Shown in pieces: positions 37,519 to 41,142 of a stretch of 41,142 nucleotides of DNA (the first letter of the stretch is position 1; every line of letters begins with the position of its first letter). The notes beneath the pieces are model-generated. The model was not told the origin of the DNA. It was given only the letters and a program-made list of their open reading frames with translations, and searched no databases. The stretch is from Arenicella sp. (GTDB lineage Bacteria; Pseudomonadota; Gammaproteobacteria; Arenicellales; Arenicellaceae), in the NCBI GenBank assembly GCA_023301745.1, contig JALZVW010000077.1:1-41142 (forward strand). Reading direction: 5' to 3'. The position numbers and the translations under genes are program-made.

Positions 37519-37845
37519 CTCCCCTAACTTCGCTTAAGGACTACGAGTAGTTTCTGTCAGCCTAAATAGTCAAATGAAACTCGCTTCTTTGTCCTCCGCG
37601 ACTACTCAGGTTTTACTCTGACCCCAACTCTTCCCAACTCTTCATTTATTTTTAGGGGTTTACGTACGGAATCGCTATGATTTTTGAATTGATATATTCG
37701 GTGTTCCTTTTTACTCAAAAGCATATCCTAGATATGAGTGAGAAGTGACTTATGTACCTTTATTAGGTATAACGAGAAGAAGGAACTTCTAACAGCAAAA
37801 TCGATCGAAATGAGGCTCGCTCAATAGAGAAAGGTGAACCCATAA

Positions 37846-37884
37846 AAAAGCGAAGCCAACCTAGATGATTGACTTCGCTTTTTG
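37846..37884 (-). terminator. Intrinsic terminator downstream of tRNA-Arg
   Basis: Minus strand AAAAGCGAAGTCAA-loop-TTGGCTTCGCTTTTTT; stem with one G-U pair. Confidence 0.9.
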
Positions 37885-37888
37885 TAGT

Positions 37889-37964
37889 GGTGCGCCCGGA
37901 GGGATTCGAACCCCCGACCAATTGGTTCGAAGCCAACTACTCTATCCAGCTGAGCTACGGACGC
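37889..37964 (-). tRNA. tRNA-Arg(UCG), CCA encoded
   Basis: Minus strand GCGTCCGTAGCTCAGCTGGATAGAGTAGTTGG-CTTCGAA-CCAAT...GGGGGTTCGAATCCCTCCGGGCGCACCA; anticodon loop CUUCGAA gives anticodon UCG. Boundaries +/-1 nt. Confidence 0.93.
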
Positions 37965-37999
37965 ATGTCTTTACTAATTCTATAATACTTCTTTAAAAC

Positions 38000-38081
38000 G
38001 GCGAACTCTATTATTCGCCTAGTCCCTAGGCTCACCCTTCGGGCTGCCTTTGGCAGTTCAATTTCGTTCCAGACGAAATTG
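38000..38081 (-). repeat. Chain of back-to-back short hairpins between the partial and intact tRNA-Arg copies
   Basis: GGCGAA/TTCGCC (38000-38019), GCCTAG/CTAGGC (38017-38031), CCC/GGG (38035-38043), CTGCC/GGCAG (38044-38056), CAATTTCGT/ACGAAATTG (38059-38081). Confidence 0.8.
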
Positions 38082-38082
38082 T

Positions 38083-38102
38083 CAGCTGAGCTACGGACGC
38101 AT
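38083..38102 (-). pseudogene. Partial tRNA-Arg: duplicated 5' end (acceptor 5' strand and D-arm start)
   Basis: CAGCTGAGCTACGGACGCAT identical to 37947..37966 at the 5' end of the intact tRNA. Confidence 0.85.
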
Positions 38103-38142
38103 ATTCTTTCAGTTCAAAGAGACTCTCTCTTTAAGTTGGGCG

Positions 38143-38148
38143 ATTATA
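38143..38148 (-). promoter_or_regulatory. Putative -10 box (TATAAT) for the tRNA-Arg transcript, with GC-rich discriminator
   Basis: Minus strand TATAATCGCCCAAC; lies upstream of the partial tRNA copy. No convincing -35 identified. Confidence 0.5.
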
Positions 38149-38245
38149 ATGCAAACTGCCCAAGGTTTCGACCAGTGATTACAATCTCGGCAACAAAAAA
38201 GTTCTATACTTTCAGGCATACCGATTAAGTTCACGTTTTCTACTA

Positions 38246-41142
38246 ATGCCAGCAGCAAAAAAAAAAGCAAAACCTCACACTAGAGAGCCATGGCCAACGC
38301 CTATTAGCTATCCTGAAAACTTGCCGATTAGCCTTCGTCGAGAAGAAATAGCCAAGGCAATTAAAGACAACCAAGTTGTGATTTTGGCGGGGGAAACAGG
38401 CTCTGGTAAAACCACACAGTTGCCTAAAATTTGTTTATCACTGGGTTACGGCGAGAGAGGCTTGATAGGCCACACTCAGCCGCGCCGCATTGCCGCAAGA
38501 ACCGTGGCTGACCGTATCGCCTCTGAACTTAAGACGCCGCTAGGCGAAGGCGTTGGTTACCAGGTAAGGTTTACTGACAATTCAGGTAAGAACACCCGAA
38601 TAAAGCTAATGACCGACGGCGTATTGCTGGCCGAATTTCAACACGACCGCTTGCTGAAAAAGTACGACGTTATCATCATTGATGAAGCACACGAGCGAAG
38701 TTTGAATATCGACTTCTTGTTAGGTTTATTAAAACCACTTTGTCAAAAGCGCCCAGAACTCAAAGTCATTATCACCTCGGCGACCATTGATTTAGAGAAG
38801 TTTTCTAAACACTTTACCTTACGCGGTAAGCCCGCCCCTATTATCGAAGTCTCGGGGCGCACCTACCCGGTGAAGACACTGTATCAAGAACCTGCCACAG
38901 AAGAACAGAATCTACCGGATTTGATCACCAACACGGTCACTCAAATAATTCGCGGTGAGGCTAAGGGTGACTACAACGCCAGCGGTGATATCTTAGTATT
39001 TTGCGCAGGTGAACGTGAGATACGCGATGCCGCGCAAGCCTTACGGCGTGCTCAGTTGCCGCTTGAAGTATTACCGCTGTATTCTCGCTTAAGTGTTAGC
39101 GAACAAAACAAGGTGTTTAGATCAGCGCATAGACGCAAGGTGGTGTTAGCGACCAATGTAGCTGAAACCTCGATAACGGTGCCGGGTATCGCCTACGTGA
39201 TTGACCCAGGGTTGGCACGCATCTCACGTTATAGTTTTCGCTCCAAGGTGCAACGTTTACCGATTGAGGCGGTCTCTCAAGCCAGCGCGAATCAACGCCA
39301 AGGCCGTTGTGGCCGTGTTTCAAATGGTGTTTGCATTCGCCTTTATTCAGAGCAAGATTTCAAGCAACGAGCCCAATTCACACCCGCTGAGATATTGCGC
39401 AGCAACCTCGCTTCGGTGATTCTAAAAATGCTGCGCTTAGGCATTAAAGATGTGACGCAATTTGAATTTCTCGACCAGCCAGACAGCCGACTACTTAATG
39501 ACGGCTTTAAACTGCTTGAAGAACTAGGCGGCGTTAACGATGAGCGCAAGCTGACGCCCGTTGGCCGACAAATGAGTGACCTCTCGGTTGACCCCAAATA
39601 TGCGCGTATTCTTATTGAAGCCAACAAATTAGGCTGTTTACGAGACACTCTAATCTTAATCAGTGGCCTAAGCATTCAAGACCCACGCGAGCGACCGGCC
39701 GATAAACAACAAGCGGCCGACCAAGCTCATCAGCAATTGCACCACAATCAATCTGATTTTTTTAGTTATTTGCACCTATGGCAGGCGATTAACAATTCTC
39801 GAGATGAATTAAGCAATACAAAGTTTAAGCAACATTGTGTTGAGCGCTATTGGTCTATCGCGCGTATTTTTGAATGGCGTGAACTGTTCCGCCAATTATT
39901 GACTCAAGGCAAATCACTGGGTTGGAAGGTTGATGAATGGGCTTCACTTACATTGCCAGAACCTGGCAAGAAAAAAGCCAAACCCGACTCGAACTTTAAT
40001 CAACGCTATGAAAAATTGCACCGCGCTTTATTGAGCGGGTTATTGAGTAACATTGCGACCAAAGACGTTGACGGTGAATACCTAGCAACACGCAGTCGAC
40101 ACGTGCATTTATTCCCCGCCTCGGCCCAGGCAAAGCGTAAACCTAAATGGATTATGTCGGCTGAGTATTTAGAGACATCGCGTTTGTTTGCTCACACCAT
40201 TGGCGAAATAAAACCTAATTGGGTGAGTGATACCGCCAAGCACTTGTGTCGCTACAACTACAGCAGCCCACATTACCATGTGCGCTCAGGAAGCATTAAA
40301 GCCTATCGTGAGACCTTGCTCTACGGCCTAACTCTGCGCGACAAAGAAGCGGTAAATTACGCACCGATTAATGCCACTGAAAGCCGACACGTGTTTGTAC
40401 AACAAGCGCTGGTTGAAGGGCGTTATAAGCCAAAAGGGAAAATCGCTGAATTTGTAACACACAATGAAGCGCTAATCTCAGATATAGAAAAACTTGAAAC
40501 CAAGACACGCAAACGAAACCTATTGGTGAATGAACGCATCATTTTCGATTTTTACCATGAACGTTTGCCTGAGCAAATTCATAATCGACATGCGTTAGAA
40601 CACTGGTTATCTCAAGCAAACGAGGGGGTTTTAAAACTCAATCGCGAAACCCTGTTACAAGCTGAGTTAGACACACAACAGACGTCACAATTCCCCGACA
40701 AAATAGTGGTTCACGGAAAAGAAGTGAGCATTATCTACAAGTTTGACCCTGGTAAACACAGTGACGGCGTGACCATGATCGTGCCAATTTTGGTATTAGC
40801 CCCCTTTCCAAAACACATTGGTGATTGGTTAGTCCCTGGCCTCTTGAGGGAAAAATGCATTGCCTTGATCAAGACATTAGCCAAGCCAATTCGGCGCAAC
40901 TTTGCTCCCGCGTCGGATGCCGTAGATCGAATTTTCGATAAACTAGTGCCCTGTGATGCGCCGCTGACTCAAGTGCTGGCCGAACAATTGTTTCGTGCCA
41001 GGGGGGTGAAGGTCAGCGCGGCCGACTTCAGCACAGACAAACTCGATGACTTCTATCGAATGAATTATCGAGTGATCGACACTGACGGCTCGCTAATCGA
41101 AGAGGGTCGAGACCTCGCTCACCTAAAACAAAGTTACGCCAA
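38246..41142 (+). CDS. hrpA: ATP-dependent RNA helicase HrpA (3'-truncated by window end)
   Basis: Translated by eye: [95 protein letters not shown]...[18 protein letters not shown]; absent from ORF track because it has no stop in the window. Confidence 0.95.

Follow-up and report, generated by a model that had tools for sequence, protein, structure and literature searches.

A four-hairpin repeat in a duplicated tRNA-Arg copy of Arenicella belongs to a class-wide family found in tRNA loops

The window analysed here, i.e., the whole stretch of 41,142 nucleotides that makes up contig JALZVW010000077.1 of Arenicella sp., an uncultured marine bacterium (assembly GCA_023301745.1), carries an intact tRNA-Arg(TCG) gene and, beside it, the gene of the RNA helicase HrpA (Table 1). 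On the plus strand the 20-bp sequence CAGCTGAGCTACGGACGCAT is present twice (37947-37966 and 38083-38102), as the initial annotation had reported, with a bracketed segment (37967-38082) of 116 bp; the first copy corresponds to the 5' end of the intact tRNA plus two leader bases. The order of parts that had been read from the minus strand, i.e., TATAAT, a leader hairpin, a tRNA fragment broken after AGCTG, a chain of hairpins, an AT-rich spacer, the intact tRNA and a terminator, was recovered in our analysis, and the predicted fold of the minus-strand transcript 37889-38137 is more stable than 200 out of 200 shuffled sequences (z = -4.2). The proposed chain of five hairpins within the 116 bp is real as a chain, but the unit conserved in the family has four hairpins and 71 nt, and the fifth hairpin (GGCGAA/TTCGCC) spans the junction between element and spacer, outside the family unit. 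The element lies in the D-loop of the duplicated tRNA copy (CAGCTG^element^ATAGAG; the intact tRNA reads GATAGAG, one G-to-A difference), and the breakpoint in the D-arm noted earlier agrees with the insertion point found in relatives.

Table 1 Features of the tRNA-Arg locus in the window.
Feature	Position	Strand	Evidence
Terminator-like hairpin after the intact tRNA	37844..37883	-	Seen in the sequence; not listed by a simple scan
Intact tRNA-Arg(TCG)	37888..37964	-	ARAGORN; Rfam RF00005, 67 bits
Spacer with duplicated leader (TCGCCGTTTTAAAGA... followed by AGTAAAGACAT), preceding the intact tRNA	37965..38004	-	Compared with the empty site and the leader (38116-38142)
tRNA remnant ATAGAGT on the right-hand side of the insertion, continuing the D-arm	38005..38011	-	Corresponds to GATAGAGT in the intact tRNA
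Element, 71 nt, four hairpins	38012..38082	-	Family covariance model R1, 88.2 bits, E 2.7e-19 (a training-member score, the window copy being one of the 18 sequences used to build R1)
Hairpin 4, 5 bp (GCCTA/TAGGC), loop with GGGA	38017..38031	-	Compensatory changes in 5/5 pairs; GGA nearly invariant family-wide
Hairpin 3, 3 bp (CCC/GGG)	38035..38043	-	Pairs nearly invariant
Hairpin 2, 5 bp (CTGCC/GGCAG)	38044..38056	-	Alignment A3: compensatory changes in 5/5 pairs
Hairpin 1, 9 bp, loop CTGGA	38059..38081	-	Alignments A1 and A3: compensatory changes in 9/9 pairs
tRNA-Arg 5' fragment (GCGTCCGTAGCTCAGCTG) of the interrupted copy, left of the insertion	38083..38100	-	Same sequence as the intact tRNA has at its 5' end
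Leader hairpin AAAGAGA...TCTCTTT	38116..38132	-	Seen in the sequence, folds; absent from empty sites
Promoter-like TCGAAA-17-TATAAT	38143..38171	-	Position common to the empty site (TCGAAA-17-TATACT)
HrpA RNA helicase gene, divergent neighbour, runs off the window; synteny marker	38249..41142	+	NCBIfam TIGR01967, 1261.7 bits

Searches of relatives at the DNA level retrieved stretches with 75-87% identity in several congeners and in a single genome from outside the genus, and most of these matches adjoin tRNA genes. Eighteen copies were aligned without a covariance model (alignment A1), giving a consensus of 72 positions (ACAAATTCGnCnGGAGCGAATTTGAACTGCCnnAGGCAGCCCnAAGGGTGAGTCTCAnGGATGAGnCGAATA) with four hairpins and compensatory changes in 17 of 22 pairs, and the covariance model R1 was built from these copies. 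In a class-wide alignment of 85 distinct sequences (A3), double compensatory changes were found in 20 of the 22 pairs and 97.8% of the cells pair, with a covariation score of 0.588 against 0.140 in shuffles and at most 0.068 when slid; A3 was fitted to the model and is hence biased towards structure, and the model-free A1 agrees with it. Family members are ~71-76 nt long and have no coding capacity. The four-hairpin model and the compensatory changes bear out the earlier suggestion of a compact structured element. Rfam matched only the tRNA in the window, permissive settings giving just a chance match, and the element was rejected as a known RNA family for want of an Rfam match.

Using model R1, one full-length copy was found in the genome of the window and ~100 copies in the genus Arenicella, where 18 of 19 genomes are positive. 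Positive genomes numbered 43 of 110 in the order, 152 of 369 in the class and 67 of 299 in a sample of the phylum that extends beyond the class, with some positives among the genomes outside it, and a pattern scan of named genomes detected a copy in Mariprofundus erugo. The initial annotation had allowed for a sequence confined to this locus and lacking conserved structure, which is clearly not the case given the class-wide homologues and their compensatory changes.

The copies are strongly associated with tRNA genes. Of 88 Arenicella copies, 53 are no more than 250 bp from a tRNA called by ARAGORN, compared with ~0.8 expected if ~45 tRNAs in 3.3 Mb are assumed (or 8 if insertion is confined to 10% of the genome), counts that come from related genomes with some insertions common by descent and in which tandem copies are counted singly. 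The copy is on the same strand as the tRNA in 49 of these 53 cases. Within the wider sample, 31 of 79 copies are found at this distance, and the neighbouring tRNAs include Arg, Lys, Glu, Ser, Pro, Gly, Gln and others. The same element thus adjoins numerous other tRNA genes, and each of them is accompanied by a fragment of its own tRNA, which is the pattern that the initial annotation had proposed to look for. Near-tRNA copies in Arenicella mostly sit in the T-loop (TTCG^AAT) or D-loop of a broken tRNA beside an intact one; T-loop copies are flanked by TTCG and A(A)TCC, and D-loop copies by CAGCTG and ATAGAG or, in tRNA-Ser, by GTGGTCG and ATGCG. Over all copies, near tRNAs or not, the junction is G^A in roughly 70-75% (G at base -1 in 72-75%, A at base +1 in 68-78%), and tandem copies join as ...GAAT|ACAA.... 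At four loci (L050, L085, L086, L100) a near-complete tRNA is interrupted in its T-loop and followed by an intact one, and these interrupted tRNAs are probably dead, since the match of their 3' ends to the acceptor strand has been lost. Where a copy follows a tRNA, it typically lies 75-82 nt away, with the terminator of that tRNA in between.

Exact inverted matches to the right flank gave a weak signal upstream (7, at most 7 in controls) and a stronger one downstream (11, at most 7 in controls). Targeting of hairpin loops in general was dropped as a rule because re-paired flanks score nearly as well (stem score 9.48 vs. 9.16, 12/200), and insertion into a hairpin loop looks convincing in single cases (L103, L111, L112). 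The apparent target rule that we keep from these comparisons is therefore limited to G^A plus the enrichment in tRNAs and in enterobacterial ERIC repeats. Elements at L059 and L038 come after a tmRNA-like 3' end (CCGCCTCCACCA) with a terminator, and tmRNA may also be a target.

Outside tRNAs, the element interrupts a repeat at GTG^AATCC in E. coli (panC-rpnC), Salmonella (nirD region and pduE region) and Klebsiella. We take this repeat to be ERIC from its core AATCCCC...GGAGC...GTAAGTGACTGGGGTG, by comparison with the ERIC primer motifs. The interruptions are ~70 nt long, score 49-62 bits to R1 and lie outside its training set. Insertions within ERIC and their folding were reportedly described in 1997 by Cromie, Collins and Leach and by Sharp (Mol Microbiol; cited in PMC3696847), and may correspond to our ~70-nt interruptions. 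One element is also nested inside hairpin 1 of another (L092, L112). In high-copy genomes the element is carried within larger repeats that have inverted ends, and multi-copy activity of its own was rejected for these genomes, as the flanks show passengers in the larger repeats. Because these high-copy sets are passengers, the case for independent mobility would rest on the diverse and unrelated insertion sites. Larger MITE-like repeats with inverted ends (e.g. TAGCCCGGATATTGCACC...) contain the element at L135-L141, L142-L146 and L149-L154. One copy (L096:1501-1573) lies within a long open frame matching DUF6079 and leaves the frame unbroken, and another (L088) abuts a gene for an N-6 DNA methylase.

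A comparison with close relatives, which the initial annotation had recommended, retrieved syntenic sites in two congeners (G010 and G007), where the tRNA-Arg beside hrpA has an empty 5' side and the HrpA proteins are 86-88% identical to that of the window; in G007 an element flanks this tRNA on its opposite side (L052). The promoter-like sequence of the window aligns with that of the empty sites, which argues that the tRNA-Arg promoter is ancestral and now stands ahead of the fragment, and which supports the earlier reading of a single promoter upstream of the fragment. Relative to the empty site, the window has gained the element, the remnant ATAGAGT, the spacer, and a second leader with the tRNA 5' end, and the start of the spacer (TCGCC...TTAAAGA) resembles the leader just downstream of TATAAT. 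The proposed insertion into a tRNA whose 5' end is duplicated holds, but the duplication does not look like a standard target duplication; it appears instead that the leader and the 5' part of the tRNA were tandemly duplicated around the insertion, which accounts for the arrangement. Repeated units of this type are also seen at L069 and L189. Across Arenicella species, the element is found on either flank of the tRNA-Arg(TCG) gene (37888-38102 in the window; L028, L031, L052, L055, L056), in the 5' D-loop in the window, G015 and G017, and in the 3' T-loop in G007, G016, G006 and G015.

We consider it probable that a small non-autonomous structured repeat inserted at G^A in the D-loop of a tRNA-Arg(UCG) copy and that a tandem duplication left an intact tRNA, a reading whose observed part comprises the family, its structure and insertion point, the repeated tRNA-loop and ERIC association, the syntenic empty site and the shared promoter position. 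A copy of the repeat, presumably moved by an enzyme acting in trans, would have entered the G^A step in the D-loop of the tRNA-Arg(UCG) gene copy. Duplication of the leader and tRNA 5' part, before or together with the insertion, would leave the intact tRNA directly downstream and behind the ancestral promoter, with the interrupted copy decaying to its 5' fragment. The element would then be transcribed within a precursor that probably consists of leader, tRNA fragment, four hairpins, spacer, intact tRNA and terminator, from which RNase P would free the tRNA.

Alternatively, the element could be a conserved functional RNA (a processing module, an attenuator or an sRNA) that accompanies tRNA genes under selection and whose mobility is incidental. 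The strong covariation on one strand, the nearly invariant GGA loops and the prevalence of the tRNA's own strand are consistent with such a role, as is the upstream linker of T-loop copies, which carries GAGAA in 21 of 45 cases (1.3 expected) and pairs with the tRNA 3' fragment on the far side of the element (8.71 pairs vs. at most 8.07 in re-paired controls). However, the presence of the element at a given tRNA is patchy, with empty sites, its position 5' or 3' of the tRNA varies, and copies are also found in ERIC, MITEs and coding genes, and we therefore regard this alternative as rather unlikely.

The decoy RNAs of the Csr/Rsm system (CsrB, RsmZ) are likewise chains of hairpins with GGA loops; the element differs from them in being a dispersed repeat, as yet a candidate RNA, that has GGA in two of its four hairpins. 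Among the class-wide copies, GGA is found in the loop of hairpin 1 in 78/85 and of hairpin 4 in 79/85, whilst the stems vary freely. Hairpin 4 has the A(N)GGA loop by which Csr/Rsm-binding RNAs are recognised, and in 44 of the 85 copies it reads exactly CANGGAYG, the consensus reported for P. aeruginosa RsmA (for E. coli CsrA, RUACARGGAUGU and AUGGAUG are reported; PMC7705225). Hairpin 1 usually has CNGGA and not ANGGA, though, and hairpin 4 of the window (UAGGGACU) falls short of the full consensus, lacking its C-A. Within the phylum sample, CsrA is present in 62 of 67 element-bearing genomes compared with 182 of 299 overall, a correlation that is confounded by phylogeny, at least in part; in five element-bearing genomes no CsrA was detected, two of these genomes being at least 95% complete. 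The loops could equally be conserved by a DNA-binding enzyme. We thus treat CsrA binding as a lead and think it improbable that hairpins 1 and 4 are CsrA/RsmA-binding hairpins by which each insertion would bring a decoy or control site into a transcript, a role that can be compatible with mobility. More doubtful still is the combined reading, in which a class-wide mobile RNA module with candidate CsrA/RsmA hairpins, moved by an enzyme of an unrecognised kind, targets tRNA genes; insertion would then go with duplication of the tRNA end and provide an abundantly transcribed unit with a CsrA site or decoy. If the GGA loops do bind CsrA, the family would represent a dispersed regulatory RNA. Finally, a plain tandem duplication of the tRNA 5' end around unrelated filler, which the resemblance of spacer and leader to a tandem copy of the leader and tRNA 5' part might suggest, was rejected as barely credible, since the filler is recognisable as a member of the family with homologues in 152 of the 369 class genomes.

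Returning to insertion of a mobile repeat as the preferred reading, no mobilising enzyme was identified when the counts of Y1_Tnp and RVT_1 domains were compared with copy number in Arenicella. Terminal inverted repeats were not found in the element, whose consensus ends in ACAA... and ...GARTA, nor was a short target-site duplication, as the T-loop and ERIC junctions have no repeated target bases. These features, together with hairpins near the ends, a fixed orientation and the G^A target, would fit transposition on single-stranded DNA by an IS200/IS605- or RAYT-type (HUH, Y1) transposase. Nevertheless, G015, which has the most copies in Arenicella (25; 99% complete), has no Y1_Tnp match, and G002, with zero copies, has eight (Spearman -0.32, p 0.18), leaving this mechanism a minority option in our estimate, albeit one whose donor enzyme may have been lost since. 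The REP/RAYT foot motif (GTAG or GGAG at the hairpin foot) is absent from the element, the conserved GGA sitting in the hairpin 1 loop. Reverse transcription of an RNA copy by a group II or retron type enzyme, followed by insertion into a tRNA, could be imagined from the insertions in sense-strand loops of abundant structured RNAs, but is very unlikely, as G015 has no RVT_1 match and copy number is independent of the RVT_1 count (rho -0.02). A resident Y1 transposase or reverse transcriptase is thus unsupported as mobiliser in Arenicella, where G015 lacks both and the counts do not track the copies; a lost enzyme or one of another family may be compatible with these searches. The element also differs from tRNA-targeting integrative elements, since it has no integrase and inserts in loops instead of at an att site at the tRNA 3' end. 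An association with IS91 was rejected: one copy (L075) lies in a weak match to the IS91 zinc domain only, and suspected cases at L082 and L101 were not confirmed.

Among known systems, the element resembles the bacterial MITE-like repeats ERIC, YPAL/RU-2, RU-3, NEMIS and RUP (reviewed in PMC2229807) in being small, non-coding, strongly folded, dispersed and devoid of its own transposase. It differs from them in having neither terminal inverted repeats nor a TA target duplication, in consisting of several adjacent hairpins instead of one long hairpin, and in its strand-specific insertion in tRNA loops. Rickettsia palindromic elements (RPE), which are ~100-200 bp long with 12-bp terminal inverted repeats and occur in tmRNA and RNase P RNA genes (PMC2229807), are similar as small repeats inside structured RNA genes, whereas the host gene of our element is a tRNA that survives through a second copy. 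Within the openly accessible literature, a scope that leaves out most subscription journals, we came across no account of this element in tRNA loops, or in any organism other than enterobacteria. As far as searched, the class-wide family in tRNA loops is new, and the tRNA association may already be published. A 71-nt repeat without an Rfam entry that is present in ~40% of the sampled Gammaproteobacteria and repeatedly interrupts duplicated tRNA copies offers a genome-level system for how tiny non-coding bacterial elements move and why tRNA loops are targets, and it places the sequences that interrupt ERIC in E. coli and Salmonella within a far broader family.

Intergenic ATGGATG palindromes and GCAGGAGC motifs (e.g. 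CATGGATGGCGGAAGGTAGTACAACGCAGGAGCAGTTG) recur near several of the loci (L034, L035, L051, L053, L072, L113), and from their sequences these look like further repeat families with GGA loops.
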